This document shows positions 34,912-59,545 of a stretch of 64,000 nucleotides of DNA, piece by piece. Position 1 is the first letter of the stretch. Every line of letters begins with the position of its first letter. This stretch comes from Pseudomonadales bacterium (GTDB lineage Bacteria > Pseudomonadota > Gammaproteobacteria > Pseudomonadales > Azotimanducaceae). A model generated the notes under the pieces. It searched no databases and was not told the origin of the DNA. It was given only the letters and a program-made list of their open reading frames with translations. The stretch lies in the NCBI GenBank assembly GCA_016779325.1, contig JADHNU010000008.1, forward strand, positions 1 to 64,000, read 5' to 3'. Both the position numbers and the translations under genes were made by a program.

Positions 34912-35690
34912 CCGAACCGGTTGTCTTAGTGGAGAAGGACGGCCCCGTGGCCCTCGTCACCATGAACCGCCCCCAGGCCCTCAATGCCTTAAACAAGGCA
35001 CTGCGGGCGGCGCTCGTGACCACCTTTCAAACCCTGGCCGCGGACCCGGAAACGGAAGTGGTGATCTTCACCGGCGCCGGCCGAGCCTTTACGGCCGGTC
35101 TTGATCTCAAGGAGCTCGGCGGAGAAACGGCTGCCAGCACCGAGGCGGACGGAGAGAAAATTGATATTGGCGCCGTGCTCCATGCCTTTCCCAAACCCAT
35201 CATCGGCGCCATTAATGGCTTCGCGATCACCGGCGGCTTTGAGCTGGCCCTCCTTTGCGACCTGCTACTCTGCGCCGAAGAAGCCGCCTTTGCCGATACC
35301 CACGCCCGCGTTGGTGTCGTCCCCGGCTGGGGTCTGTCCCAGCGCCTACCCCGCCTCATCGGCCTACCCCGGGCCAAGGAACTTTCCCTCACCGGGAACT
35401 TCCTAAGTGCTCAGCAGGCGTATGCCTGGGGCATGGTGAATCGGGTGGTGCCGAAGGACGAATTGCTTTCCGCGGCCAAGGCCCTTGCGAAGGACATCTT
35501 GACCACGGAGCCGACCACGCGCCAGGCCGTCCTCACCCTCATGGACGCGGGCTGGGAGGACACCCTCGAAGGGGGCTTAGCGCGAGAGAAGGCCTGGAGC
35601 CAGCGCCATATGGCTGAGCAGGTGAAAGCCGACGCGGTGGCCGAGCGGCGTCGGGGCATCATGGATCGGGGCCGAGAACAAACGGGCTAG
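34908..35690 (+). CDS. Enoyl-CoA hydratase/isomerase family protein
   Basis: 260 residues, crotonase fold. It has N-R-P-Q-A-L-N-A-L-N, the oxyanion-hole segments G-A-G-R-A-F-T-A-G-L-D-L and I-N-G-F-A-I-T-G-G-F-E-L-A-L-L-C-D, and one acidic residue at the second catalytic position. The family hydrates or isomerises enoyl-CoA. The ATG overlaps the transporter stop. C-terminal stop shares CTAG with convergent fur. Confidence 0.85.
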   Translation: MTEPVVLVEKDGPVALVTMNRPQALNALNKALRAALVTTFQTLAADPETEVVIFTGAGRAFTAGLDLKELGGETAASTEADGEKIDIGAVLHAFPKPIIGAINGFAITGGFELALLCDLLLCAEEAAFADTHARVGVVPGWGLSQRLPRLIGLPRAKELSLTGNFLSAQQAYAWGMVNRVVPKDELLSAAKALAKDILTTEPTTRQAVLTLMDAGWEDTLEGGLAREKAWSQRHMAEQVKADAVAERRRGIMDRGREQTG

Positions 35691-36091
35691 CTTTTCGCCT
35701 TACGGACGTACAGCACCATGGTGTGCTCAACGAGCTCAAACCCATGCTCGCGAGCGATTTCCCGCTGCAGCCGCTCGATCCGCTCGTCGAAGAACTCCAT
35801 TACCCGCCCGGAATCGACGTCCACCATGTGATCGTGGTGATCGTCGCTCGCGAGCTCGTAGACGGCGCGACCGTCATCGAAGTTATGCCGCTCGACCAGC
35901 CCCGCGCCCTCGAACTGCGTGAGGACGCGGTACACCGTGGCAAGGCCAATGCTTTCATCGGATTCCATTAAGCGGCGATAAACGTCTTCCGCCGAGAGGT
36001 GATGAGGCTCGGCGCTCTCGAGAATCTCTAAAATCTTGAGGCGCGGCACCGTCACCTTGAGTCCAGCGCGGCGTAGGTCGGCGTTATCCAC
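35687..36091 (-). CDS. fur: Ferric uptake regulator Fur, cysteine-free
   Basis: 134 residues. The N-terminal winged helix has R-R-A-G-L-K-V-T-V-P-R and the recognition helix I-G-L-A-T-V-Y-R-V-L; the metal-binding H-H-D-H-M segment and C-terminal dimerisation domain follow. The GTG start with GAGGAGA gives a Fur-like N-terminus; the longer open frame is spurious. There is no cysteine anywhere: positions of the C-x-x-C that binds structural Zn in E. coli Fur are Asp and Ser. It represses iron uptake genes when Fe(II) is bound; other Fur-family roles (Zur, PerR) are less likely from the sequence. Confidence 0.85.
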   Translation of the reverse strand: MDNADLRRAGLKVTVPRLKILEILESAEPHHLSAEDVYRRLMESDESIGLATVYRVLTQFEGAGLVERHNFDDGRAVYELASDDHHDHMVDVDSGRVMEFFDERIERLQREIAREHGFELVEHTMVLYVRKAKS

Positions 36092-36237
36092 GAGCTCTCC
36101 TCTTCCTCGAAGCACGCCCCCGGGCGGGGGCACAAGGCGACCTATTAGGCCCGACTGGGGCCCTCTTGGCAAAAGGCGAGTTGCCGCCCCGGGCCCGCCG
36201 TGGTCCCATGAGCCAAAGCTCACTTTGAGGAGTTCCC

Positions 36238-37179
36238 ATGACCATCAGCGCGGGCCTTGGCCTAGCCAATTTTCCCTTTTCCAACGGCCGAGCCTTTTGG
36301 CGTTGGGTCGAGCTGTGCGAAAGCGGCGGCATTGATTCGATCTGGCAGTCAGACCGGCTGGTGAGCCCGATCCCGAATCTTGAGGTGATGTCCGTGATGG
36401 CCGCCCTGGCCGGGGGCACGAAGCGGCTGAAGTTCGGTATGAACGTCGCTTCCCTTGGCCACCGGGACCCCTTCATCACGGCCAAGGCCTGCGCAACGAT
36501 CGATGTGCTCTCGGAGGGGCGCCTTCTCCCGGCCTTTGGCGTCGGCACGGCCCGCAGCGCCGACTACAGCGCCCGGGGCGTGCCTACCCAGGGGCGGGGG
36601 AAGCGCAGCGCCGAGGCCCTAGAAATTCTCTCGACCCTTTGGGCGAAGGGGTCAATCACCTTCGAGGGCACCTACTACCGCTATGAGGACGCGACGCTCG
36701 CCCCGGGCCCGGTGCAAAGCCCCATGCCGCTTTGGGTCGGCGGCAGTGCCCCGGCCGCCATCGAACGGACTGCACGCTGGGGCACGGGCTGGCAGGCGGG
36801 GCTGGAAACGCCGGAGGAGATCGCGCCCGTGATCCAGGCGATCAAAGCGCGGGCCGACGCCCTCGGTCGCCCCATTGATGAAGACCATTTCGGCGCCGGC
36901 TTCGCCTTTCGCTTTGGCCGCGCGGACGACCCCGTCGCCAAGGCCCAGCGGGAGGCTTTGCAGGCGCGCCTTGGTGCCCAGGCCGAAGCCATGATGGCCG
37001 TGGGCGATGGGGAAACAATTCTGGAGCGGCTTCTGGCCTATCACGCCGCCGGGGCCCACAAGTTCATCCTCCGGCCCATGGCCAGCGATGACGAGGACAT
37101 GATGAGGCAAACGGCCCGCCTCATCGCGGAGGTCCTTCCCCAGGTGGAAGCCCTCAATCGCGCGGCGAGGGCCGCATGA
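36238..37179 (+). CDS. LLM-class (luciferase-like) oxidoreductase
   Basis: 313 residues, TIM-barrel luciferase-like monooxygenase family. G-I-D-S-I-W-Q-S-D near residue 31, a strand ending M-N-V-A-S-L-G-H-R-D-P, G-R-L-L-P-A-F-G-V-G-T-A and P-L-W-V-G-G-S-A-P are conserved positions. Members use F420 or FMN; given the F420 operon in this window, F420 is plausible. GAGGAG precedes the ATG by six bases. It overlaps the GpgP-like phosphatase gene by ATGA, so it is cotranscribed with the glucosylglycerate genes. Confidence 0.82.
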   Translation: MTISAGLGLANFPFSNGRAFWRWVELCESGGIDSIWQSDRLVSPIPNLEVMSVMAALAGGTKRLKFGMNVASLGHRDPFITAKACATIDVLSEGRLLPAFGVGTARSADYSARGVPTQGRGKRSAEALEILSTLWAKGSITFEGTYYRYEDATLAPGPVQSPMPLWVGGSAPAAIERTARWGTGWQAGLETPEEIAPVIQAIKARADALGRPIDEDHFGAGFAFRFGRADDPVAKAQREALQARLGAQAEAMMAVGDGETILERLLAYHAAGAHKFILRPMASDDEDMMRQTARLIAEVLPQVEALNRAARAA

Positions 37180-43041: not shown

Positions 43042-43347
43042 TCAGCTTCGGCGCAGGGCGCCGCCGGTGCTGCCTTGCCGGGGACGCTTAAGGCGCAGTT
43101 CGAGCACGTGATCCGTTGCCTCGGCCAAGGCAAGGAGGGTTTCCAGCCGGGGCAGGCGATCGCCCGACTCCAACCGGCTGATGGCCGCTTGCGTCAGCCC
43201 TGCCCGCGCGGCCACCTCACGCTGGGACAGCTGCGCCCGCTGCCGGGCTTTGGACAGCTCCTCGGCGATAAAGCTTTCAAGGGTAACCGGCGCGTCCTTT
43301 TTCGCCGGGCTAGGGGCCTTCTTCTGCGGCTTGCCTTTCGCTGCCAT
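43042..43347 (-). CDS. XRE-type helix-turn-helix protein
   Basis: 101 residues. A Lys/Pro-rich N-terminal tail of about 20 residues is followed by a classic helix-turn-helix (S-Q-R-E-V-A-A-R-A-G-L-T-Q-A-A-I-S-R-L-E-S-G) at about residues 40-62 and a short C-terminal arm. It is the size of an antitoxin or a small repressor, but no toxin-like gene adjoins it. It is divergent from the F420 operon across a 274-base gap, so it is a candidate regulator of that operon or of itself. Confidence 0.75.
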   Translation of the reverse strand: MAAKGKPQKKAPSPAKKDAPVTLESFIAEELSKARQRAQLSQREVAARAGLTQAAISRLESGDRLPRLETLLALAEATDHVLELRLKRPRQGSTGGALRRS

Positions 43348-43525
43348 GAGATCCTCGCTCCAGGAGGGCGCTTGCGCCCTAATCTACCCGGTCCGTGCGG
43401 AGGCACGCGCCGAGCGTTATGCGGGGCGAGATTCGATCAGTATCGGGGCGCGCATTCAATAGACTTGGGTCAAGGAGAGGCTGAAAGGGCGACGGAGAGA
43501 GAGGAATTTCAAGGTTTCGACACAA

Positions 43526-43544
43526 TTGCCGTAACGCTTGGCAA
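43526..43544. promoter_or_regulatory. Inverted repeat upstream of the F420 operon
   Basis: TTGCC-N9-GGCAA lies between the divergent XRE-type gene and the F420:NADPH oxidoreductase gene, just upstream of a TTGATG (43550-43555) / GATAAT (43571-43576) promoter-like pair with a 15-base spacer. Operator function is inference. Confidence 0.3.
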
Positions 43545-43621
43545 CACTTTTGATGCGCGACGCTTTCCCCGATAATGGCCGCCCTTTGTTCTTCCCCCCT
43601 CAAAAGCATGGAGTACGCACG

Positions 43622-44284
43622 ATGGCACAAACGATCGCGATCCTCGGTGGTACGGGCGCGCTGGGCTCAGGCCTCGCCATTCGCTGGGCCCGGGCCGGGC
43701 ACCGAATCATTATCGGTTCTCGGACCCTGGAAAAGGCCCAGGAAGCGGTCACGGCGCTGAAGGCCCAAAGCCCGGAGACCGAGGCCGAGGCCATGGACAA
43801 TGCCGCCGCCGCGGCCGCGGGGGAGATCGTCGTGCTGACCGTCCCCTACGCCCACCAACTTTCGACCCTAGAAGGGGTAAAAGGCGCACTCCAGGGAAAA
43901 ATCCTGATCGACGTGACCGTGCCCCTGCAGCCCCCGAAGGTCGGCACCGTGCAGCTCCCGGAGGGCGGCAGCGCCGCCGCCGCCGCGCAGGCCATGCTCG
44001 GAGAGGAGGTTTTTGTGGTCTCCGCCTTCCAGAATATTGCGGCGGACCTGCTCCAGGATCCGCTCCTCACCATCGAATGCGACGTGCTTGTTTCCGGGAA
44101 TAAGAAAGATGCGCGGCAGCAGGTCATCGACCTCGCCGCAGAGGCCGGCATGCGCGGCTGGCACGCGGGCCCCATCGCGAACTCTGCAGCGGCCGAGGCG
44201 CTCACCTCAATTCTTATTCAAATCAATCGTCAAGGTGAGATTTCTCATGCCGGCATCAAGATTGTCGGCCAGGAAGTACATTAA
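43622..44284 (+). CDS. npdG: F420:NADPH oxidoreductase (Fno/NpdG)
   Basis: 220 residues. The Rossmann motif G-G-T-G-A-L-G is near residues 9-15, and G-S-R-T-L-E-K-A gives the NADPH-specifying S-R-T segment. V-V-L-T-V-P-Y follows, with the F420-binding region and a long C-terminal helix. The enzyme exchanges hydride between NADPH and F420, supplying F420H2 to reductases. The start is the ATG at the beginning of the conserved Rossmann strand; the open frame extends upstream without conservation. First gene of the F420 cluster, 3 bases before cofE. Confidence 0.88.
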   Translation: MAQTIAILGGTGALGSGLAIRWARAGHRIIIGSRTLEKAQEAVTALKAQSPETEAEAMDNAAAAAAGEIVVLTVPYAHQLSTLEGVKGALQGKILIDVTVPLQPPKVGTVQLPEGGSAAAAAQAMLGEEVFVVSAFQNIAADLLQDPLLTIECDVLVSGNKKDARQQVIDLAAEAGMRGWHAGPIANSAAAEALTSILIQINRQGEISHAGIKIVGQEVH

Positions 44285-44287
44285 AAA

Positions 44288-45058
44288 ATGACGGCTACGC
44301 TCCTGCCGCTTAAGGGCTTCCCCGATGTGCAAGCGGGAGACGATCTGGGCGAGCTGATTGATGATGCCCTGATCCTCAATGGCCTCACCTTAGCGGATGG
44401 GGACGTGATCGCCATCGCTCAAAAAGTGGTCAGCAAAGCCGAAGGACGGCAGGTTGCGCTGGCCACCGTAACGCCTACGGCGGAGGCGGAAGCCCTCGCC
44501 GAGGAGACGGGCAAGGACCCTCGCCTCGTCACCCTGATCCTTCAGGAATCCACGACCATCGTGCGGAAGCGGCCCGGCGCCCCGGGCGTTATTGTGGTTG
44601 AGCATCAACGCGGATGGGTTCACGCCAATGCGGGCATCGACCAATCCAACATTCAGGTCGAGGAGGGCGGCGCGAGCGCCCTGCTCCTCCCGGAGGACCC
44701 AGACCGGTCCGCCGCCGTCCTGCGGGACCACTTAGAAGCCCGTCACGGGGTGCGCCTCGGCGTTCTTATTAACGACAGCTTTGGCCGGGCCTGGCGCGTG
44801 GGCACCTGCGGGGTGGCCCTGGGCGCCGCCGGGCTCACCACACTCCTCGACCTGCGCGGCCAAGGGGATCGCTATGGGCGGCGCCTTGAGGTCAGCGTAG
44901 TGGGCCTCGCCGACGAGCTCGCCGCCGCCGCCTCCGTGATAATGGGACAGGCCGCGGAGGGTACGCCGATCGTGTTGCTTCGGGGCTTCCCTGGCGTGCT
45001 GGGAGATGGGTCGGCCGCTCAGCTCGTCCGACCCGCTGCCGAGGATCTCTTCCGATGA
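44288..45058 (+). CDS. cofE: Coenzyme F420-0:L-glutamate ligase, stand-alone
   Basis: 256 residues, the size of archaeal CofE. V-I-A-I-A-Q-K-V-V-S-K-A-E-G near residue 42, the acidic metal site in N-A-G-I-D-Q-S-N and V-L-I-N-D-S-F-G-R-A-W-R are conserved. It adds gamma-linked glutamates to F420-0 using GTP. Actinobacterial FbiB fuses this domain to an FMN reductase domain; no such domain is present here. Overlaps cofD by ATGA. Confidence 0.93.
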   Translation: MTATLLPLKGFPDVQAGDDLGELIDDALILNGLTLADGDVIAIAQKVVSKAEGRQVALATVTPTAEAEALAEETGKDPRLVTLILQESTTIVRKRPGAPGVIVVEHQRGWVHANAGIDQSNIQVEEGGASALLLPEDPDRSAAVLRDHLEARHGVRLGVLINDSFGRAWRVGTCGVALGAAGLTTLLDLRGQGDRYGRRLEVSVVGLADELAAAASVIMGQAAEGTPIVLLRGFPGVLGDGSAAQLVRPAAEDLFR

Positions 45059-46011
45059 GCGCGCCCAAGGTGCTGGCGCTCACCGGAGGCGTGGGCGGCG
45101 CCAAGCTCGGCCTTGGGCTGGCGCACTGCCTGCCCTCGGAGAACCTGGCTTTTGTGGTGAACACGGGGGACGACTTTGAGCACCTCGGCCTGCCCATCAG
45201 TCCCGACCTCGACACTCTGCTCTATACGCTGGCGGGGGAGGTTCATGAGGACCAGGGCTGGGGGCGACGCGACGAAACCTGGACGGTCCTAAACACCTTA
45301 GAACGGCTCGGCGGCGCAAGCTGGTTTCGCCTCGGCGACAAGGACCTCGCCCTGCACCTGCGGCGCCGGGAGACCCTCGCCTCGGGCGCTCGGCTGACCC
45401 AGGCCATGGCTTTGCTTGGGGACGCCTTCTCCGTGCCCTTTCCCCTGCTGCCCATGAGCGATGATCCGGTGCGCACGGTGCTCACCACCCGGGAATTCGG
45501 TCGCCTACCCTTCCAGAGCTATTTCGTTCGCGAACGCTGCGCGCCCACGGTACAGGCGATTGCTTACGAAGGCGCTGGCGCGGCGGGCCTCTCCCCGGAA
45601 GTGGCCGCGGCCCTGGCGGATCCCGCCCTGGACCTCATCGTCCTTTGCCCCTCAAACCCCTATCTCAGCATAGCGCCGCTGCTGGCTATCCCGCCGCTTC
45701 GGAAAGCGCTGGAGCGCCGCCGCGTACCGGCGGTGGCGGTCTGTCCCCTGGTGGGCGGTGCGGCCGTGAAGGGCCCCACGGCCAAGCTCATGGACGAACT
45801 CCACGTGCCGCGGACCCCCGCAAGCATCGCCCGCTACTATGGGGGTGTGATCGATGGCCTTATCCTAGATGAACAAGATCGCTCCCATGCCGACGCCGTA
45901 CGCGCCGAAGGGGTAACGCCTGACGTAGCGCCCACAGTCATGCTAACTTTGGGCGACAAAATTACCCTGGCCCAGCGCACCCTCGCCTTCGGAGAAACGC
46001 TAAGGGGTTAG
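45055..46011 (+). CDS. cofD: 2-phospho-L-lactate transferase (CofD/FbiA)
   Basis: 318 residues. L-T-G-G-V-G-G-A-K-L near residue 10 is the signature, followed by V-V-N-T-G-D-D-F-E-H-L-G, the Asp pair that binds Mg and the GDP-linked donor. Later S-N-P-Y-L-S-I-A-P-L and G-P-T-A-K-L-M-D-E-L are typical. It transfers the phosphorylated three-carbon acid from the guanylylated donor to Fo, giving F420-0 or a relative. In the operon between cofE and cofC. Confidence 0.94.
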   Translation: MSAPKVLALTGGVGGAKLGLGLAHCLPSENLAFVVNTGDDFEHLGLPISPDLDTLLYTLAGEVHEDQGWGRRDETWTVLNTLERLGGASWFRLGDKDLALHLRRRETLASGARLTQAMALLGDAFSVPFPLLPMSDDPVRTVLTTREFGRLPFQSYFVRERCAPTVQAIAYEGAGAAGLSPEVAAALADPALDLIVLCPSNPYLSIAPLLAIPPLRKALERRRVPAVAVCPLVGGAAVKGPTAKLMDELHVPRTPASIARYYGGVIDGLILDEQDRSHADAVRAEGVTPDVAPTVMLTLGDKITLAQRTLAFGETLRG

Positions 46012-46085
46012 GCGCTTTTAGACTCGCCGCGCGAACCGTCCGAGGGGGAAGGTTCCGGCGCAACGCCCTCAATGAGGAGCCCACC

Positions 46086-46751
46086 ATGGCATGGGCACTG
46101 CTACCGGTTAAGGCACGCGCGACGGCTAAGGGACGGCTGCGCGGTGCCCTGTCCGATAAGGACCGGGCCGGTCTGGCCGCGGCCATGCGGCGGGACGTCG
46201 CCGCAGCCCTCCGCGGTACCGCTGCCCTGCAGGGCGTGTTGCTCCTCAGCCCTGATGCCACCCTGCGGCGCTGGGGCGCCGAGCAAGGCTTCGAAACCTT
46301 GGATGATGGCGGGGTTGGGCTTAACGAGGCCCTCGCCCTTGGCCTTGAGGCGCTACATCAGCGCGGTGCCGGGCGTGCGCTCATTATCCCTTCGGACGTC
46401 CCCTTACTGAGCCCTGAGGATCTCACCATCCTTTTGGGCGCACCCGCCGAGGTGGCCATTGCCTCGGACCAGCGCAGCGACGGGACCAATGGGCTCAGCG
46501 TGCCCCTCGGCCGGGGCTTTACCCCCCACTTCGGCCTGGGCAGTGCGCAAGCCCACCGACGCGAAGCGCGACACCGGGGCCTGGCCTGCCAGGTGATGCT
46601 CTGCCCGGGGCTCGCCCTCGATATCGACCAGCCTGACGACCTCACGACCCTGCTGCAGGCCCCTGCGCACGGGCCGTGGGGCCAGGAAAGCCTCACCTTT
46701 CTCTACGAAAATCACCTTGTTCCAAGACTGACGCCACGCGCTGCGGTTTAG
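46086..46751 (+). CDS. cofC: CofC-type guanylyltransferase for the F420 side chain
   Basis: 221 residues, a small nucleotidyltransferase fold. L-L-P-V-K-A-R-A-T-A-K-G-R-L near the start binds GTP; I-I-P-S-D-V-P-L-L carries the metal-binding Asp; D-G-T-N-G-L-S-V-P and F-G-L-G-S-A-Q-A-H are family hallmarks. It makes the GDP-activated C3 acid used by CofD. Homologues use 2-phospholactate, PEP or 3-phosphoglycerate; the choice is not readable here. A 74-base gap follows cofD. Confidence 0.9.
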   Translation: MAWALLPVKARATAKGRLRGALSDKDRAGLAAAMRRDVAAALRGTAALQGVLLLSPDATLRRWGAEQGFETLDDGGVGLNEALALGLEALHQRGAGRALIIPSDVPLLSPEDLTILLGAPAEVAIASDQRSDGTNGLSVPLGRGFTPHFGLGSAQAHRREARHRGLACQVMLCPGLALDIDQPDDLTTLLQAPAHGPWGQESLTFLYENHLVPRLTPRAAV

Positions 46752-46777
46752 CCCCGTCACGCTTTAGGGAGCGCACC

Positions 46778-49204
46778 ATGAATGCCCGTCTACCGACTCC
46801 GCTGACCGCCACTGGGCTCTCCGAGGCAGACGCCTACGGGCTCCTCGAGGGACCGCCCCTTGAAGCGCTCCTCGCAGAGGCAAGAAGCCTTCGAGATCAA
46901 GGCTTTGGGCCCCTTATCACCTACTCCAGGAAGCTCTTCCTACCGCTGACGCACCTGTGCCGAGACGTCTGCCATTACTGCACCTTTGCCACCACGCCCC
47001 GGCATCAGAAAGCGCCCTACATGAGCGTCGAGGCGGTGCTCGAGGCCGCGCGCCAGGGCGCCGCCGCCGGCTGCAAGGAGGCGCTTTTTACCCTTGGGGA
47101 GAAGCCCGAACTCCGCTATCGCGCCGCCCGGGAAGCGCTCGACGCGCTGGGCTTCCCCAGCACCACGGCGTACCTTGCCCACGTGGCAGGGCGCGTGCTC
47201 GAGGAAACGGGCCTGCTTCCGCATCTGAACCCCGGCACCCTCGAGGACAGCGACTTCGCCGCTTTGAAACCCGTGGGCCCCTCCATGGGCATGATGCTGG
47301 AGAGCACGGCTACCCGGCTCTGCGAAAAGGGCATGCCCCACTACGGCTCGCCGGATAAGGACCCGCAAGTTCGGCTCGCCACCCTGGATGCGGCGGGCCG
47401 CGCCGCAGTGCCCTTCACCACCGGAATCCTGATCGGTATTGGGGAAACGCGCCGGGAACGCATCGATACCCTGCTGGCCATACGCGCCAGCCACCAGCGC
47501 TATGGCCATATCCAGGAAGTGATTGTGCAGAACTTCCGCGCCAAGGCCGGCACCAAGATGGTTGGGGCGCCAGAGCCCAGCCTCGAAGAGCTGCTCTGGA
47601 CCCTTGCGGTGGCACGACTGATCTTCGGGCCCCGCATGAGTATTCAAGCCCCTCCGAATCTGTCGCCGGGGGTCCTTTCGCAGCTGGTCGACGCGGGGCT
47701 CAACGACTGGGGCGGCGTCTCCCCCATCACCCCGGACTTCGTGAACCCGGAAGCGCCCTGGCCCCATCTTGAGCGCCTGGCGGAGGAAACGGCGGCCGCC
47801 GGCAAGCAGCTGACGGAACGGCTCACGGTCTATCCCGCCTATCTTCAAGCCAGCGGAAAATGGCTCGATCCCGCCGTGGCCCCGCGGGTGCTCCGCGCCG
47901 CCGACGGCGCCGGCCTGGCCCGGACGGACGACTGGACGCCGGGGGCGGTCGTGCCCCCCCCGGAGAAGGTGCTCCAAGCCCTACGTAGGGTTTCCCCGCG
48001 GCCGCGCCCCGAGATCACGCGCATCCTCGATCGGGCCGAGGCCGGGGAGCGGCTTTCGGAAGAGGAACTGGTTACCCTGTTCCACGCTCGAGGCGACGAC
48101 TTTGCCGCCATCTGCCAACGCGCCGATCAGCTCCGGGCCGCCCACGCAGGCTCGGTGGTCCGCTATGTGGTCAACCGGAACATCAACTACACGAACGTCT
48201 GCTATTTCAAATGTCAGTTCTGCGCCTTTTCGAAGGGCAAATTAGCCGAAAACCTCCGGGGCCGTCCCTACGATTTATCGGGGGAAGAACTGGGCCGGCG
48301 CGTAGCCGAAGCCTGGGACCGGGGCGCCACGGAGGTCTGCCTCCAGGGCGGGATTCATCCCGAATATACCGGCGACACCTACCGCGACATTCTGCGCACG
48401 GTGAAAGCTGCGGCGCCGGCCATGCATATTCATGCCTTCTCCCCCTTGGAAATCTGGCAGGGGGCCGCCACCGTCAACATGACCGTGCGGGCCTATCTGG
48501 AGATGCTTAAAAAGGAAGGGCTGGCGACGCTCCCGGGGACGGCCGCGGAAATCCTCGATGACGAGGTCCGGGCGGTGCTATGCCCCGATAAGATCAACAG
48601 CGCCGAGTGGCTTGCGGTCATGCGTGCGGCGCACCGGGCCGGGCTCCGGAGCACGGCGACGATGATGTTTGGCCATGTGGATCGCTACGAGCACTGGGCT
48701 CGCCATCTTCTAAAGATACGCGATCTTCAGGCCGAAACGGGGGGCTTTACGGAATTTGTGCTCCTTCCCTTTGTGGCGGAGGAGGCCCCAATCTACCTGA
48801 AGGGCCGCGCCCGTCGAGGCCCAACCTTCCGCGAGGCGCTGCTCGCCCACGCGGTCGCGCGCCTGGCCCTTTCGCCGCTGATTCCGAACATTCAATGTTC
48901 CTGGGTCAAGCTTGGCCACGAAGGTGTGAAGGCCGCCCTGCAGGCGGGTTGTAACGACCTCGGGGGAACGCTCATGAATGAAACGATTACCCGGGCGGCG
49001 GGGGCCCAGCATGGGCAAGAAACGGGGCCCGACGCCATGGAAAGCCTCATTAGCAGCCTTGGCCGCAGCCCGGCTCAACGCACCACCCTCTATGAGCCCG
49101 TGAGCGACGCCCACCGCCTGCGGGCCCGGCGTGCCGCGCCTCTGATTCCCCTGATCAACACGCCCGCCACGCGCTACGAGCGGTCAAAGACCGTCGAGGG
49201 GTAA
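46778..49204 (+). CDS. fbiC: Fo synthase, fused CofG-CofH (FbiC)
   Basis: 808 residues, two radical-SAM halves. The CofG-type [4Fe-4S] motif C-R-D-V-C-H-Y-C is near residues 62-69 and the CofH-type C-Y-F-K-C-Q-F-C near residues 475-482, as in actinobacterial FbiC. It builds the deazaflavin Fo from tyrosine and a ribityl-diaminouracil intermediate. The ATG after AGGGAGCG gives an N-terminus matching the family; earlier in-frame sequence overlaps cofC. It is the last biosynthetic gene of the operon. Confidence 0.95.
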   Translation: MNARLPTPLTATGLSEADAYGLLEGPPLEALLAEARSLRDQGFGPLITYSRKLFLPLTHLCRDVCHYCTFATTPRHQKAPYMSVEAVLEAARQGAAAGCKEALFTLGEKPELRYRAAREALDALGFPSTTAYLAHVAGRVLEETGLLPHLNPGTLEDSDFAALKPVGPSMGMMLESTATRLCEKGMPHYGSPDKDPQVRLATLDAAGRAAVPFTTGILIGIGETRRERIDTLLAIRASHQRYGHIQEVIVQNFRAKAGTKMVGAPEPSLEELLWTLAVARLIFGPRMSIQAPPNLSPGVLSQLVDAGLNDWGGVSPITPDFVNPEAPWPHLERLAEETAAAGKQLTERLTVYPAYLQASGKWLDPAVAPRVLRAADGAGLARTDDWTPGAVVPPPEKVLQALRRVSPRPRPEITRILDRAEAGERLSEEELVTLFHARGDDFAAICQRADQLRAAHAGSVVRYVVNRNINYTNVCYFKCQFCAFSKGKLAENLRGRPYDLSGEELGRRVAEAWDRGATEVCLQGGIHPEYTGDTYRDILRTVKAAAPAMHIHAFSPLEIWQGAATVNMTVRAYLEMLKKEGLATLPGTAAEILDDEVRAVLCPDKINSAEWLAVMRAAHRAGLRSTATMMFGHVDRYEHWARHLLKIRDLQAETGGFTEFVLLPFVAEEAPIYLKGRARRGPTFREALLAHAVARLALSPLIPNIQCSWVKLGHEGVKAALQAGCNDLGGTLMNETITRAAGAQHGQETGPDAMESLISSLGRSPAQRTTLYEPVSDAHRLRARRAAPLIPLINTPATRYERSKTVEG

Positions 49205-49240
49205 GGCCATGGCCCCCGAGCTCGCCAGGGGGGAAGGCCC

Positions 49241-50254
49241 TTGGGCCTAGGACGCTTAGGACTCCTCTTCGGGCTGGCCTTCACGGCTGCCGTGCTCCTC
49301 GGCCCCGTGGCGCTGCGTCCCTGGGACTTGGCCGCCCATCCCGCCGCCGGACCCATTCTGCTGGAACTGCGCCTGCCCCGGGCCGTGCTCGCGGCCACCG
49401 TCGGCGCGGCCCTGGCCGTTGCCGGCGTCCTCCTTCAAGCCATTCTTCGCAACCCCCTTGCGGACCCCGCTCTCCTCGGCGTCTCTGGGGGCGCGGCCCT
49501 GGGCGCCGCGCTCGTCCTTGCCCTGGGCATCACCCTGCCCACGGCCCTGGCCTTTGGCAGCACCAGCGCCTTCCTACCCTTTATGCCCGTGGCCGGGGCG
49601 GCCTTCGCCGGGGCCCTGCTGGCCGTGAGCCTGGTGCTGCGCCTTGGACGCCGGGCCCAGCGCCTGGATCTGGCCGGGGTGCTCTTGGCGGGGGTGGCGG
49701 TCAACACGCTCTGCGGGGCCGCCGTTGGGCTGCTTATGGTCTTAGCGGGAGACAGCGCCCTTCGAAGCATCAGCTTCTGGCTCTTTGGCTCCCTTGCCCA
49801 GGCAAGCTGGAGCCACCTTGCCCCCCTCCTCCTTGGCCTCCCCATCGCCCTGTATGCCACGCGGCGCTGGGGCACGGCGCTGGACGTCTATCAGCTCGGA
49901 GATCGGGAAGCCACCCACCATGGACTCCCCGTAGGGCGCCTTCAGCGCCAGGCGTTGCTACTCGCAAGCCTTCTGACCGCTCTGGCCGTTGCCCTAGCCG
50001 GCATCATCGGCTTTATCGGCCTCCTCGTGCCCCAGGGTCTCGCCCTTGTGCTTGGGCCCAGCTACCGTCACCGCCTTCCCCAGGCAGCGCTCGCCGGCGC
50101 CACCTTGCTACTGCTGGCGGATCTCGGAGCCCGCCTGGCGCTTGCACCGACGGAGTTGCCCGTGGGCATGCTAACGGCCCTACTCGGCGGCCCGTTTTTT
50201 CTCTGGCTCCTCCGCCGCCGCCTTGCCGGCGGCGGCACCGAGGGGGGGCCATGA
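49241..50254 (+). CDS. FecCD/BtuC-type ABC transporter permease
   Basis: 337 residues with about 9-10 membrane helices. R-L-P-R-A-V-L-A-A-T-V-G-A-A-L-A, G-V-L-L-Q-A-I-L-R-N-P-L-A-D-P and L-L-G-V-S-G-G-A-A-L-G-A are the BtuC/FecCD signature. A TTG start is used; no in-frame ATG or GTG with a better site is present. It follows fbiC by 36 bases. Members import corrinoids, haem or siderophores; no binding protein adjoins. Confidence 0.85.
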   Translation: MGLGRLGLLFGLAFTAAVLLGPVALRPWDLAAHPAAGPILLELRLPRAVLAATVGAALAVAGVLLQAILRNPLADPALLGVSGGAALGAALVLALGITLPTALAFGSTSAFLPFMPVAGAAFAGALLAVSLVLRLGRRAQRLDLAGVLLAGVAVNTLCGAAVGLLMVLAGDSALRSISFWLFGSLAQASWSHLAPLLLGLPIALYATRRWGTALDVYQLGDREATHHGLPVGRLQRQALLLASLLTALAVALAGIIGFIGLLVPQGLALVLGPSYRHRLPQAALAGATLLLLADLGARLALAPTELPVGMLTALLGGPFFLWLLRRRLAGGGTEGGP

Positions 50255-50997
50255 GCCCATCCCTAACCCTTGAGAACATCTGGGTGGCGGGAGAGCGGGC
50301 TCCCCGCCTTGGGCCCCTATCCCTCACCCTGCCCGCGGGACAGCGCATTCTCCTAGCCGGCCCCAATGGCGCAGGTAAAAGTACCCTGCTGGCGGTCCTT
50401 AGCGGCGATCTAGAAGGCAGCGGAGGCACCCTGACCTGGCCCCCTTCCAGCGCCTGGGCCCAGCGCCGAGCCGTACTCACCCAGCGAAATACGCTGGATC
50501 ATCCCTTCACCGCCGAGGAGGTGGTGTGCCTTGCCGGCGTCAGCGGAGCGACGGCCCGCGCCGTGCTTGAGGAATTGGGCGCCGGTGCCTGGGCCCAAAC
50601 GCCCTATACCCGGCTCTCCGGGGGCCTTGCCCGCCTGGTCCACCTGGCGCGGGTACTTGCGCACCTTGATCAGCTCGACCCGACGGCTGCCTGGGGCTTT
50701 TTCGACGAACCCCTGGCCCACCTCGATTGGCGCTATGCGGGGGCAGCGCTCCGAGCCCTCTCGCGCCGCGCGGCCGCGGGCTATGGCGTCGTCGTGGCCG
50801 CCCACGAACTCAATCTGGCCGTGCCTTGGGCGGAGCATGTGGTATTACTGTGCGCGGGCAGGCTGGAAGCGGAAGGCGCCGTGGGGGCCGTGCTGACGCC
50901 CGACCGTTTGGCTGAACACTGGGGTATTTCGGGGCATGTAGACCGGCGAGACGAGGGCGCCGTCCTGATCCTCGAGGGCTTTACCGAGGCGGGCTAG
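50251..50997 (+). CDS. ABC transporter ATP-binding protein (BtuD/FecE type)
   Basis: 248 residues. Walker A G-P-N-G-A-G-K-S-T near residues 38-46, signature L-S-G-G-L near 124 in place of L-S-G-G-Q/E, Walker B G-F-F-D-E-P-L-A-H-L-D, and the switch His in A-A-H-E-L-N. The ATG overlaps the permease stop. It powers uptake through the upstream permease, and with it forms a BtuCD-like pair. The stop shares CTAG with the convergent LLM gene. Confidence 0.87.
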   Translation: MSPSLTLENIWVAGERAPRLGPLSLTLPAGQRILLAGPNGAGKSTLLAVLSGDLEGSGGTLTWPPSSAWAQRRAVLTQRNTLDHPFTAEEVVCLAGVSGATARAVLEELGAGAWAQTPYTRLSGGLARLVHLARVLAHLDQLDPTAAWGFFDEPLAHLDWRYAGAALRALSRRAAAGYGVVVAAHELNLAVPWAEHVVLLCAGRLEAEGAVGAVLTPDRLAEHWGISGHVDRRDEGAVLILEGFTEAG

Positions 50998-51824
50998 GAC
51001 GCCTCTAGGAATTCATCGAAGAGCGCATCGGCAACGTCCTCAAGGAATTGCTCAAGGATCGGCCGATCGTCCGGGGGCAACATCAGGACCACCCGATCCA
51101 CCTCGAGATCCTCAAAGGCTTCGAGCGTTTCCAGCGTCGGCACGGCAGCGGTGAGCACCGCGACCTCGAGGGTACCAAGAGCGCCGATCCGCTCGCTCCG
51201 GCTGTCCTCTTCCTCCAGCGCGGCCATGGCCTCGGCCACCGCTTCGAGATCATCGCCACGAAACAGCCAGCCCTGAGCCGACGTCACCGCGAGGGCCAAG
51301 CTCGCGGCACTTCGGCCTTGAACCCATAGGGGCAAGCTCGCCCCATGGAACGGCCGAGGCGCCGCCTGCAGCTGAGCAATTTGATGGCACTGACCTTCAA
51401 GCCGCGGCGCCTGGCTACCCCACAGGCTTCTTAGGCCTTGAAGCCATTCTTCCTCTAAATCCGTACCGCTGGCCTGGCCAAAGCCAGGGGGCAGCAGGAG
51501 CTGGGCACGCCCGTCGCTCCAATGATCCAGGCTGGCCACCAGCTTTGCCCACAGTAAGGCGTCACCGGCGCAGCCCTCGGAAGCACTCATGACTAAGGTA
51601 AGGGCTTCCGTGTGCTCCGCCAGCGCACCGAGGCATATGGCAGGGTGGATAATGGGCGTGTTGGGACTGGGCGCTCGAGGGTGGGGCCGAGGATCGGAAA
51701 GCGCGAGGTCACCGGCGGTCCAAAGAGAATCGAAGCCAAGGTCCTCCGCAAGCTGCGCAAGGGACAGGGCAACTTCCGGATTCGCCGCAGCGCCCTGGTT
51801 AATACCGTACAGTCCAAAGTGCAT
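50994..51824 (-). CDS. LLM-class oxidoreductase, divergent
   Basis: 276 residues, luciferase-like fold recognisable from H-F-G-L-Y-G-I, L-A-E-D-L-G-F-D-S-L-W-T-A-G-D and P-L-W-V-Q-G-R-S. It is about 40-60 residues shorter than its relatives in this window, and its C-terminal third is unusually acidic. The loop binding the deazaflavin phosphate is poorly conserved, so cofactor use is uncertain. Tail-to-tail with the ABC ATPase gene. Confidence 0.7.
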   Translation of the reverse strand: MHFGLYGINQGAAANPEVALSLAQLAEDLGFDSLWTAGDLALSDPRPHPRAPSPNTPIIHPAICLGALAEHTEALTLVMSASEGCAGDALLWAKLVASLDHWSDGRAQLLLPPGFGQASGTDLEEEWLQGLRSLWGSQAPRLEGQCHQIAQLQAAPRPFHGASLPLWVQGRSAASLALAVTSAQGWLFRGDDLEAVAEAMAALEEEDSRSERIGALGTLEVAVLTAAVPTLETLEAFEDLEVDRVVLMLPPDDRPILEQFLEDVADALFDEFLEAS

Positions 51825-51919
51825 GGCCTGGCCCTCCCCGAGCCCTGCGCCGGGGCCTTGGGCACCCGAAGCGCGCGTGTTACCTTAGCTTGACACTTTT
51901 TTCTGTCTGAGAGTATCCC

Positions 51920-52507: not shown

Positions 52508-52768
52508 ATGGCCTTTAGCTGCCGAAGCGGCTGCGGCGCATGCTGCATTGCGCCGGCGATCGTCACCCCGTTCTACGGCATGCCGGCGGGAAAACCCGCC
52601 GGGGTCCGCTGCGTTCATCTGACCGAAGGCCTTCGCTGTGCGCTCTTTCGTGACCCTCGGCGCCCCGCCGCGTGCGGGGCCTTTCAGGCCGAACCGGCCT
52701 TTTGTGGCACGGACCGGGCGACGGCCTTTGCCATCCTTACCCAACTAGAAGCGGAAACGCAGGCTTAG
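52508..52768 (+). CDS. YkgJ-family cysteine-rich (metal-cluster) protein
   Basis: 86 residues with eight Cys; C-x3-C-x2-C-C near the N-terminus and three more isolated Cys toward the middle and C-terminus, including the R-P-A-A-C-G-A-F-Q segment, match the YkgJ/UPF0153 zinc or iron-cluster family. Function unknown. Cotranscribed with idi; the stop overlaps the convergent LLM gene in TTAG. Confidence 0.75.
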   Translation: MAFSCRSGCGACCIAPAIVTPFYGMPAGKPAGVRCVHLTEGLRCALFRDPRRPAACGAFQAEPAFCGTDRATAFAILTQLEAETQA

Positions 52769-53775
52769 CCTGCCTTCAGGGCGTCGATGATCTTCTTCTG
52801 CTCCGCCACGGGCACGGTGCTGTACGCCGCGGAAGTGCGATCGACGATGTCGCCATAGCGGGACAGAATGCCGGCGGCCACATCCTTCGGCTCGGCCACC
52901 ACGGCAAATTCCTTGAGAAGGTCGTCGGTGATGAGCTCGCCCATCTCCACCCACTTCCCTTCCTTGGACATGGCGTTCAGCACCCCTTGCAGCTCCCCGG
53001 CACCGATGGAGTCGAGAACCCCCTTGTAAGCAGGGGTGGAGCCATAGAAGGCAATCTGCTTGGTCACCGTGGCTTTGGCCTGAGCAAAGCTTTGCTCATC
53101 GCTGCCCGTCACCACGAAGCAGGGGTAGGCAATCTGGAAATCTTCCCGCCGCCGCCCGGCCTTAGCGAAGCCCTTCTCCAGCGCCGGCAAGGTCACACTT
53201 CGAAGATAGGCCTCGGTGGTGAAGGCGTGAACGATCATGCCGTCCGCCACTTCCCCAGCGACCTGGGTCATGACCGGACCCACGGCAGCGAGAAACACCT
53301 TCGGGGCCCCGTAGGTCGTATTGGTGGGGGTGAACATGGGCGTCATGAGGGTGTGCTGATAGTAATCCCCCCGGAACTTCAGGGGTTCCTCCTCGTACCA
53401 GCACGCCCAAATAGCGCGCATGGCGGAAATCAGTTCGCGCATCTGCTTTGCCGGCGCGTCGTGCCAGGGCATGGAGAAGCGCTTGGTGATATGGGGCTTG
53501 ATCTGCGAGCCCAGCCCCAGGATGAAACGGCCCTTGGCATAGGCATTTAGATCGTGGCCCAGGTTCGCTAGGGTCATGGGGCTTCGGGAGAAGGCCACGG
53601 CAATGGATGTCATAAGCTCGATCTCCCGGCTTTGGCCGGCGGCCACGGCCAGGGGCAGGAAGGGGTCATGGGCCGTTTCCGCGGTCAGGGCTCCGCTATA
53701 CCCCATCTCCTCTAAGCGGGCGATCTCCTTCGGTACGTCTTCAAGGTTCGTGGTCAATCCGGCGTCAACGCGCAT
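52765..53775 (-). CDS. LLM-class F420-dependent oxidoreductase
   Basis: 336 residues. The N-terminus (M-G-Y-S-G-A-L-T-A-E-T-A-H-D-P-F-L-P) and the segments I-A-V-A-F-S-R-S-P-M and F-I-L-G-L-G-S-Q-I-K-P-H are those of the TIGR03617-type, putative F420-dependent LLM enzymes. They reduce or oxidise alcohols, aldehydes or enoyl compounds with F420. Minus strand, convergent with the idi-YkgJ pair and separated from htpX by about 170 bases. Confidence 0.85.
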   Translation of the reverse strand: MRVDAGLTTNLEDVPKEIARLEEMGYSGALTAETAHDPFLPLAVAAGQSREIELMTSIAVAFSRSPMTLANLGHDLNAYAKGRFILGLGSQIKPHITKRFSMPWHDAPAKQMRELISAMRAIWACWYEEEPLKFRGDYYQHTLMTPMFTPTNTTYGAPKVFLAAVGPVMTQVAGEVADGMIVHAFTTEAYLRSVTLPALEKGFAKAGRRREDFQIAYPCFVVTGSDEQSFAQAKATVTKQIAFYGSTPAYKGVLDSIGAGELQGVLNAMSKEGKWVEMGELITDDLLKEFAVVAEPKDVAAGILSRYGDIVDRTSAAYSTVPVAEQKKIIDALKAG

Positions 53776-56116: not shown

Positions 56117-57109
56117 CTAGCGCTTGAAAGCGGACGCCGTGAAGGCCTTCAGGGTGGCCTCGGCGGACGCCGCATCAAGGGCCAGGGGCGCAATGATGGC
56201 CGTGTCGACGCCCGTGTCCATGGCCCAGCGAATGCGCTCCTGACACTCCCCTGCACTACCGATCACGCCAATCTCGTCCACGAGCTGGTCCGTGAGAGCG
56301 CTGCTCGTCTTCTCCCGATCCTTCGCGGCCCACCCTTCGCGAATGGCGGCCGCGGCTTCCTCGTAGCCCGCCCAAGCCAGGAATGCGTTGTATTGCGGGG
56401 TGGCATAGTAAGGCGCGAAGGCCGCCCGGAAGGCATTACGGGCCCGGTCCTTGTCATCGGTTACGCAGACCATGAAGCGGTTCACCACCTCCGGGCGGGC
56501 GCTCTTGCCACCGCGTGCCGCGCCGATATCGACGTGTTCCATCATCTTCGGCAGGGCCAGCTTCGGCCACAGATTGAAGATCACCCCATCGGAGACCGCA
56601 GCCGCCTCTTCGATCATCTTCGATCGTAGGGCCGCCATGTACACCGGAGGCGGCGTCTCCAAGGGCGGCTGACGATAGCCCTGGCTCTGGAGCGTTTCGC
56701 CGTCGAAGTTGCTTTTTTCTCCCGCCAGCATGGACTTCACCAGACGCACCGTTTCGCTCACACGGGTGAGCGGCTTCTCCAAGGGAATGCCGTTCCATCC
56801 CGTCATCATGGTTTTGCTCGAGGAGCCAAGCCCCATGACGAAACGCCCCGGCAGCTGCTGCGCCACCGTATAGGCCGTGGCCGCCAGGACCGACGGCGCC
56901 CGGGTGTAGACCGGCGTGACGGCAATGCCCACGCGGAGGGTTTTCGTGTGATCCCCAAGGATGGCCGCCAGAGTGAGCGCATCGGGGGCGCCGCCGTCGC
57001 CAAACCAGGCGTCGCTGTAGCCCTCAGCTTCTGCCCACTGGGCCCGAGCGATGGTGTCGGAGACCTTCGGCCCCCCCGGTAAGGTTACCGCGACGCGTTT
57101 TTCCGCCAT
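56117..57109 (-). CDS. LLM-class F420-dependent oxidoreductase
   Basis: 330 residues. The N-terminus K-R-V-A-V-T-L-P-G-G, the strand G-I-A-V-T-P-V-Y-T-R-A-P and F-V-M-G-L-G-S-S-S-K-T-M-M-T-G-W are typical of F420-dependent LLM enzymes like Mer/Fgd relatives. GAGGGGG four bases before the ATG fixes the start. Head of the operon with enoyl-CoA hydratase and thioesterase, suggesting a redox step within acyl-CoA breakdown. Substrate unknown. Confidence 0.85.
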   Translation of the reverse strand: MAEKRVAVTLPGGPKVSDTIARAQWAEAEGYSDAWFGDGGAPDALTLAAILGDHTKTLRVGIAVTPVYTRAPSVLAATAYTVAQQLPGRFVMGLGSSSKTMMTGWNGIPLEKPLTRVSETVRLVKSMLAGEKSNFDGETLQSQGYRQPPLETPPPVYMAALRSKMIEEAAAVSDGVIFNLWPKLALPKMMEHVDIGAARGGKSARPEVVNRFMVCVTDDKDRARNAFRAAFAPYYATPQYNAFLAWAGYEEAAAAIREGWAAKDREKTSSALTDQLVDEIGVIGSAGECQERIRWAMDTGVDTAIIAPLALDAASAEATLKAFTASAFKR

Positions 57110-57285
57110 GTTTCCCCCTCGTTGAATAGGACGGGCCTCGCAGGAGGCCGTGCGCCCGAAGCGTCGCATCGCCCCCGCTCTCGATCAAGCCTTCCGAGGC
57201 CGAGGGACGATGCTATGCTCCCCACCTGCTGCGCTGGCGCAAGCGAGCGCGGCTGTTCACCGATCTCTGGGGGAAGGATCACCGC

Positions 57286-58409: not shown

Positions 58410-59450
58410 CTAGAGCATCACGTCGGCGAGCAGCTCGATGGCCTGAGGCTGCGCTGAGCCAATGAGCATGGAGCCCACTTCCCCGCGCTTATCGGCGTCC
58501 TTCCAGCGCTGCGCGCGTTCGCGAATGCGCTCTGCGGGGCCGACGAGGTGGCACGCATCGATCAACTCCGCAGGCACAGCGGCCATGGCTTCATCTTTGC
58601 GGCCCGCAAGGTAGAGGTCTTGAATCTTGATGGCCGCCTCTTCAAAGCCTAGGCGCTTGGCATAGTCGTTGTAGAAGTTCTTATCCCGGGCCCCCATGCC
58701 GCCGATGTACAGCGCCATGCTGCCGCGCAGGGGCATCATGCATTCCTCGACGCTATCGCCGAGCACGCAGTTTACGAAAGGGGCGACGTCGAAGTTGAGC
58801 ATGGACTTGCCGTTGCCCGCCTTCGCAAAGCCCGCCTCGATGGGCTCCTTGAAAATGTGGAACTGGTCCGGATCCATCCATACGGGGAAGAAGCCATCGC
58901 AGGTTTCCGCCGCCGCCGCGACGCCCGTGGGCGTAATGGTGGCTGCGTAGATCGGAATGTCTTCCGTGCAGTGGAGGATGCTCTTCAGCGGCTTGCCAAG
59001 GCCCGTGGCCCCTTCCCCCTTGTAGGGCAGCTGATATTGCTTCCCGTCGAACTCCAGGGCCCCTTCCCGCGCAAAGATCTGCTTCATGATCTGTACGTAT
59101 TCCTTAAGGCGCGTGACCGGCTTGCCGTAGGGCACGCCGTGCCAGCCTTCCACCACCTGAGGACCGGAGGCCCCCAGGCCTACGATGAAGCGGTCATTAG
59201 AAAGCTGCGCTAGACTCATGGCGGTCATGGCCGCCATGGCCGGGGAGCGCGCCGGCATTTGCATGATGGCCGTGCCCACGCGAATCTTCGTGGTGTTGGC
59301 GAGAATCCAGGTGGCCGGCGTGATGGCGTCCGAGCCATAGGCTTCTGCGGTCCACACCGAGTCATAGCCGCAGGATTCCGCGTGCTTAATCGCATCCATG
59401 GGCAGGTTCATGCGCGAACCTGAATAACCAACGAGCATTCCGAGCTTCAT
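58410..59450 (-). CDS. LLM-class F420-dependent oxidoreductase (TIGR03559-type)
   Basis: 346 residues. M-K-L-G-M-L-V-G-Y-S-G, S-V-W-T-A-E-A-Y-G-S-D-A-I-T-P, G-T-A-I-M-Q-M-P-A-R-S-P and F-I-V-G-L-G-A-S-G-P-Q-V-V-E-G-W-H-G match a well-defined, putative F420-dependent subgroup common in mycobacteria and other F420 producers. ATG chosen at the family N-terminus; GGGAGAGA precedes it. Substrate unknown. Confidence 0.87.
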   Translation of the reverse strand: MKLGMLVGYSGSRMNLPMDAIKHAESCGYDSVWTAEAYGSDAITPATWILANTTKIRVGTAIMQMPARSPAMAAMTAMSLAQLSNDRFIVGLGASGPQVVEGWHGVPYGKPVTRLKEYVQIMKQIFAREGALEFDGKQYQLPYKGEGATGLGKPLKSILHCTEDIPIYAATITPTGVAAAAETCDGFFPVWMDPDQFHIFKEPIEAGFAKAGNGKSMLNFDVAPFVNCVLGDSVEECMMPLRGSMALYIGGMGARDKNFYNDYAKRLGFEEAAIKIQDLYLAGRKDEAMAAVPAELIDACHLVGPAERIRERAQRWKDADKRGEVGSMLIGSAQPQAIELLADVML

Positions 59451-59545
59451 GAAAGGTCTCTCCCTTAGGGCAAAGCAAATGGTCTTGCCGCGGAGTATAG
59501 GGGCCGGTCCCAAGAAGCGTCGACCCTTCCGGGAGTCCCTGCGCC

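Follow-up and report, generated by a model that had tools for sequence, protein, structure and literature searches.

A probable vitamin B12-type transporter gene pair directly follows the F420 biosynthesis genes in one gammaproteobacterial lineage

The DNA analysed here, referred to below as the window, is a stretch of 64,000 nucleotides from a bacterium of the Pseudomonadales family Azotimanducaceae, and it lies on G000:C48 of a draft genome of 2,355,118 bases in 75 contigs that is 93.45% complete. The window carries an F420 biosynthesis operon and, directly behind it, a pair of genes for an ATP-binding cassette (ABC) transporter. Gene families were assigned with NCBIfam equivalog models judged by their curated cut-offs, with Pfam domains and by comparison with the chains of solved structures; the genes, their families and their distribution are established at the level of sequence. 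All seven genes are on the forward (+) strand. The run starts with npdG for an F420:NADPH oxidoreductase (43622..44284; TIGR01915, 199.1 bits, cut-off 149.8), followed by cofE for the F420-0:L-glutamate ligase (44288..45058; TIGR01916, 261.9 bits, cut-off 180.65; PF01996 only), cofD/fbiA for a phospho-lactate-type transferase (45055..46011; TIGR01819, 257.6 bits, which barely passes the cut-off of 257.45), cofC/fbiD for a guanylyltransferase (46086..46751; TIGR03552, 137.6 bits, cut-off 105) and fbiC for a fused CofG-CofH synthase of 7,8-didemethyl-8-hydroxy-5-deazariboflavin (FO) (46778..49204, from an ATG; NF006687, 1155.1 bits, cut-off 1018). These genes are separated by 3 bases (npdG/cofE), 74 bases (cofD/cofC) and 26 bases (cofC/fbiC), while cofE and cofD overlap by 4 bases. 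A BtuC-like permease of the FecCD family (49241..50254, from a TTG; PF01032, 267.8 bits) follows 36 bases after fbiC, and the gene for its partner ABC ATPase (50251..50997; PF00005, 66.8 bits) overlaps the permease gene by 4 bases. The gene order given in the preliminary description of this DNA, with the permease and the ATPase 36 bases behind fbiC, agrees with the coordinates of the open reading frames, five NCBIfam equivalogs and the Pfam domains. The transporter genes are however not fused to the operon, as had been stated; they adjoin it as separate open reading frames.

Since CofC, CofD, CofE and the FO synthase all score above their curated cut-offs within a single run, production of F420 by the operon is predicted. 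The operon has the same enzymes as the bacterial type with a fused FO synthase, the form that occurs in Actinobacteria and Proteobacteria according to the accessible part of PMC8498797, but differs from it in that NpdG is encoded within the run, CofE has no reductase domain and CofC lacks the serine associated with 3-phosphoglycerate (3-PG). The earlier designation of the operon as complete stands as far as the five genes above their cut-offs are concerned, but is conditional on the two latter points. No FbiB-type reductase domain was found in CofE, which consists of an F420_ligase domain alone (256 aa), or elsewhere in the operon; this search did not extend to the rest of the genome. In the portion of PMC8764529 available to us, S162 of Mycetohabitans CofC is described as diagnostic for 3-PG tolerance, and we located the equivalent site on alignments using the numbering in that portion. 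The CofC protein of the window has a glycine at this site, as does FbiD, which uses phosphoenolpyruvate (PEP). None of the eight aligned CofC proteins has a serine there: glycine is present in the window, L049, L147, L152, L051 and L083, and aspartate in L063 and L059. The residue diagnostic for the 3-PG-derived variant of F420 is thus absent, and a route from 2-phospho-L-lactate or PEP is more likely for this organism, judging from these residues. The PEP route to F420 needs a dehydro-F420-0 reductase; as the operon has none, the enzyme would have to come from outside it. A scan for promoters and terminators (43300-51900) found no promoter-like site and 9 terminator-like sites, compared to 6.3 (standard deviation 2.8) in shuffled sequences, and was therefore of no use for defining the limits of the operon. 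Divergent from npdG lies a small gene for a Cro/C1-type helix-turn-helix protein (43042-43347, reverse strand; PF01381), a candidate regulator. It is conserved at loci L046-L048 of the genus, and related genes precede npdG in L147 and L152.

The permease and the ATPase are encoded together, as in the BtuCD-F importer of vitamin B12, and the permease has its best NCBIfam match in a BtuC model (NF007081, 229.8 bits, below the cut-off of 461). The remainder of the genome contains candidates for the other components of such an importer. The genome has a single FecCD permease, as have the four other genomes of the genus. The only binding protein with a PF01497 domain, a family represented once in each of the seven genomes that share the adjacency (see below), is encoded on contig C50. 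It matches BtuF best (64.2 bits, compared to 32.7 bits for the F420-0 transporter model), and among solved structures it is most similar to B12-binding proteins (61.1 bits), ahead of heme-binding proteins (best chain 36.8 bits). A cobalamin riboswitch, the only one in the genome, is located on contig C4 directly before a receptor gene whose best model is TonB-B12. There is a PduO adenosyltransferase above its cut-off, encoded approximately 5 kb from the binding-protein gene, and a frame of 1222 aa that holds the only PF02310 (B12-binding) match in the genome and, judging from its length and domain, would be MetH-like. CbiC, taken as a single marker of de novo B12 synthesis, was absent from all 37 genomes of the family that were surveyed and present in 7 of the 58 genomes overall, the sister genomes introduced below lying outside this search. 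Taken together, these genes point to a bacterium that salvages B12 and has a single FecCD importer. On this basis we consider it probable that the permease-ATPase pair is the inner-membrane part of the vitamin B12 importer of the cell, next to an F420 operon that was inherited with the family and to which the transporter has no functional link. The BtuB-like receptor under riboswitch control would pass B12 to the BtuF-like periplasmic protein, which would deliver it to the permease and ATPase encoded behind fbiC, and the imported B12 may then feed the MetH-like enzyme and the PduO-type adenosyltransferase. We infer co-transcription of the pair with fbiC, B12 as its substrate, the BtuF-like protein as its partner and the lack of a functional link to F420. 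Of the substrates proposed earlier for the transporter (iron, a corrinoid or a deazaflavin), the corrinoid is the best supported, but as the cargo of a general B12 importer and not of a part of an F420 unit. Unlike the BtuCD-F system taken for comparison, the btuCD genes are here unlinked from btuF and btuB and are seated after fbiC, and all of these proteins remain below the curated cut-offs.

Several observations weigh against the assignment to B12. The permease reaches 229.8 of 461 and 218.2 of 334 bits with the curated BtuC models, and the BtuF-like protein (64.2 of 234 bits) and the BtuB-like receptor are likewise below their cut-offs. The BtuC cut-off was also missed by all eight further permeases that were scored (2 linked to fbiC and 6 not, 4 of the latter being linked to a riboswitch). 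The closest solved chain of the permease is the hemin permease HmuU (214.1 bits, compared to 138.4 bits for BtuC), and the best model of the ATPase carries a heme label (NF010068, 164.6 bits, below the cut-off of 261). An Rfam search of the window yielded no match at the gathering threshold, which leaves the btuCD genes themselves without a known riboswitch, and with stricter filters no cobalamin riboswitch was found in G003 and G004. The genome has 15 matches to TonB receptors and one FecCD permease, and other ligands may thus use this permease. The draft state of the genome (93% complete, 75 contigs) also counts here, as does the position of the permease in a clade with a long stem that falls outside any riboswitch-linked group (see below). 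A further point comes from the 32 genomes of the family outside the genus. Only 13 of these have a FecCD match of at least 100 bits (the one in G030 being a contig-terminal fragment), and of the 19 without a clear FecCD permease, 15 have a cobalamin riboswitch and none has CbiC. Because these 15 have the riboswitch, B12 probably crosses the inner membrane by a further route in this family, and the argument that the only FecCD permease must import B12 is for this reason strong but not compelling. In four genomes (G009, G010, G014, G018; loci L243-L246) the riboswitch region contains a relative of BtuB and no match to the BtuC, BtuD or BtuF protein described here. Related permeases are nonetheless found in the order riboswitch-BtuB-BtuC-BtuD-BtuF in G005 and G044, and in the same order without a BtuF match in G016 and G034. 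In one of the sister genomes a second, partial FecCD match occurs at a contig end (L234, G058:C294:14-355), which makes the single-permease argument less clean in that genome.

If B12 enters by such another route, the pair could import heme or a ferric siderophore for one or more of the TonB receptors. This is unlikely, although the similarity of the permease to HmuU, the heme-labelled model of the ATPase, the 15 receptor matches and the FecCD-less relatives with a riboswitch all speak in its favor. The heme label is however unspecific, since the same model is the best one for three of four riboswitch-linked ATPases (L126, L131, L141) and second for the fourth (L145); a heme importer was therefore rejected as far as it rested on the model name, and the ATPase score of 164.6 of 261 bits also falls short of what would place the pair with HmuUV. 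Moreover, the best NCBIfam models of the permease are those of BtuC, and the only PF01497 protein is nearer to BtuF than to the heme-binding proteins, in contrast to the HmuUV system with which the pair shares its closest solved permease chain and best-named ATPase model. We regard as clearly less probable that the pair works together with the F420 operon by carrying FO, F420-0, F420 or a precursor through the inner membrane. Its seat directly after fbiC, with gaps of only 36 bases or, in L147, 11 bases, is shared by seven genomes from two lineages, and the NCBIfam models named putative F420-0 ABC transporter do match. An ABC transporter beside the 3PG-F420 cluster of Paraburkholderia rhizoxinica has also been proposed as a cofactor exporter, as stated in the consulted part of PMC8498797, but a later figure legend, in the part of PMC11104420 at hand, assigns this transporter to heavy metal resistance. 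The matches to the F420-0 models, which we take to have been built on Actinobacteria with cofE nearby, are all far below the cut-offs (TIGR03869, 198.5 of 437.35 bits; TIGR03873, 111.6 of 372.4 bits; TIGR03868, 32.7 of 392.4 bits). For comparison we scored six permeases and six ATPases without fbiC alongside, four of the permeases being linked to a riboswitch and several of these twelve proteins being partial. Five of the six permeases reached 208.6-222.5 bits, more than the 198.5 bits of the window, with the sixth outside the E-value limit, and the six ATPases reached 166.7-220.0 bits as compared to 111.6 bits. The pair thus belongs to the same superfamily as the NCBIfam F420-0 transporter, but its scores, mostly below those of proteins without any fbiC nearby, led us to reject that identity. 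Further points against a link to F420 are that a cell that encodes F420 synthesis itself has no obvious reason to take up F420-0, that the adjacency is absent from the 40 other relatives with fbiC (the contigs of 5 being cut short), that the binding protein is unlinked from the pair in all seven genomes, and that in 19 of the 32 family genomes outside the genus fbiC is present but a clear FecCD permease is not. A slightly less probable, more speculative variant is a lineage-specific deazaflavin transporter with a BtuCD fold that exports or retrieves FO or F420 and possibly shares its binding protein with B12; its marks would be the long stem of the permease clade and the fixed seat after fbiC. 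If it were true, there would be a testable F420 or FO transporter in the Proteobacteria. We nevertheless consider the transporter best read as a B12 importer of cells that are apparently unable to make B12.

The distribution of the adjacency was examined in two surveys. The first covered 58 genomes including that of the window, with 37 genomes of the family and 21 others of the order, and the gene neighborhoods were inspected in all 45 of these that carry fbiC. The second covered 80 named loci, the best 80 of at least 590 confirmed matches. The two surveys overlap, because 13 of the 80 loci carry an FbiC protein identical to that of a genome in the first, and one genus member was counted in both (L146 = G002). 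The transporter follows fbiC directly in all five genomes of the genus and in two sister genomes (L147 and L152), which are metagenome-assembled genomes of Gammaproteobacteria. It does not do so in any of the 40 other fbiC-bearing relatives, of which five (G008, G021, G027, G033, G034) end at most 1.3 kb from fbiC; four of these five have FecCD matches on other contigs and G021 has none. Among the best 80 loci, 3 have the adjacency (L146, L147, L152), and 10 are cut off within 1.3 kb. The preliminary description had named an adjacency unique to this genome as a point against its own reading. The opposite was found, as seven genomes share it, but all seven belong to one clade. In L147 the permease starts with a GTG 11 bases after fbiC, and the permeases of the two lineages are 56-58% identical. 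In a permease tree built with a careful method (39 rows), the seven fbiC-linked permeases form one clade (support 100/100) that divides into the genus and the sister pair and has a stem of 0.96. The seven genomes also form one branch in a tree of the F420 proteins (support 99, starred), whereas the tree of FbiC alone, in which the forks concerned are weak or open, did not join the genus with these two sister genomes. The pattern fits best with one placement of the transporter followed by joint inheritance: the permease-ATPase pair would have taken its place after fbiC in an ancestor shared by the genus and the sister lineage, and would have stayed there. As a control we looked at the genes around the binding protein. 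All seven genomes with the adjacency share the order AmpD-BtuF-ROK-AceE there, followed in six of them by NadC, while the contig of the seventh ends at that place. A conserved adjacency at such a distance is therefore weak evidence of a shared function.

The F420 genes themselves are a trait of the family. Strong fbiC matches were obtained in all 37 family genomes (in G008 as pieces on two contigs, each below the cut-off), compared to 8 of the 21 other genomes of the order, the remaining 13 having no strong match. Within the family, 35 of the 37 genomes have the five genes in an intact order, and contig ends interrupt the set in the remaining two; of the 8 others of the order, 4 have it intact. 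The GC content at third codon positions is 0.73-0.80 for the seven genes, within the range of most other listed frames of the window (0.70-0.84), and no transfer RNA gene that could mark an island was found in the window. The F420 tree was calculated from concatenated NpdG, CofE, CofD and FbiC sequences with a quick method and with support from the SH-like approximate likelihood ratio test (SH-aLRT) only. It has 49 rows, L077 and L088 having been removed from the 51 loci because at least two of the four proteins were missing; CofC was excluded as too divergent, and 16 of the 46 inner branches are open. The genus is placed within a branch of 28 rows, of which 26 are from the family and two from the sister genomes (support 99, starred). 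Two results speak against a simple descent of the set. The 36 rows of the family fall into two branches in this tree, the other 10 rows joining two other families with starred support, and in the FbiC tree (112 rows after exclusion of 13 identical rows, quick method) the classes are mixed at depth. These patterns leave older, deeper transfers of the F420 set possible, but do not support a recent acquisition by the genus.

It had been proposed that the set was acquired as a block, in its recent form an uptake by the genus of the whole F420 set from a distant donor, transporter included. We consider this highly improbable. In favor of the idea, the family rows do not form a single group in the FbiC or F420 tree, 13 of 21 other genomes of the order lack a strong fbiC match, and F420 genes are variable among the Proteobacteria at large, with extensive horizontal as well as vertical transfer, according to the sections of PMC8498797 available to us. 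Against it stand fbiC in every family genome and the full five-gene order in nearly all of them, a base composition like that of the surroundings and the nested position of the genus among family members and the two sister genomes. A recent block acquisition thus appears to be already contradicted at the depth of the genus and of the family, and the npdG-cofE-cofD-cofC-fbiC operon was probably inherited with the family.

The present observation is real, its parts are well described and it is of an ordinary kind; what it adds is small, namely the lineage-specific position of a B12-type importer after fbiC. In the literature collection searched, we found no paper on a pairing of F420 with btuC or cobalamin, the single match concerning a lipid synthase. 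The case illustrates that an eye-catching adjacency can be an inherited neighborhood, with the F420 set as a family trait in a gammaproteobacterial group.

The surroundings of the operon contain five genes of the luciferase-like monooxygenase (LLM) class (PF00296) within approximately 23 kb (36238-59513), and this density fits with a use of F420. The gene at 36238-37179 is on the forward strand, and those at 50994-51824 (an LLM-class oxidoreductase, 88.1 bits), 52765-53775, 56117-57169 and 58410-59513 are on the reverse strand; two of them score above the cut-offs of curated F420-dependent subfamilies (TIGR03617 for 52765-53775 and TIGR03559 for 58410-59513). The operon would then make F420, NpdG would reduce it and the nearby LLM-class oxidoreductases would probably use it. 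The gene at 50994-51824 is convergent with the ATPase gene, with an overlap of 4 bases, and in L147 and L152 a relative with 35-36% identity lies further downstream of the ATPase gene. A gene for a Fur-family regulator (35687-36223, reverse strand) adjoins the first LLM-class gene.

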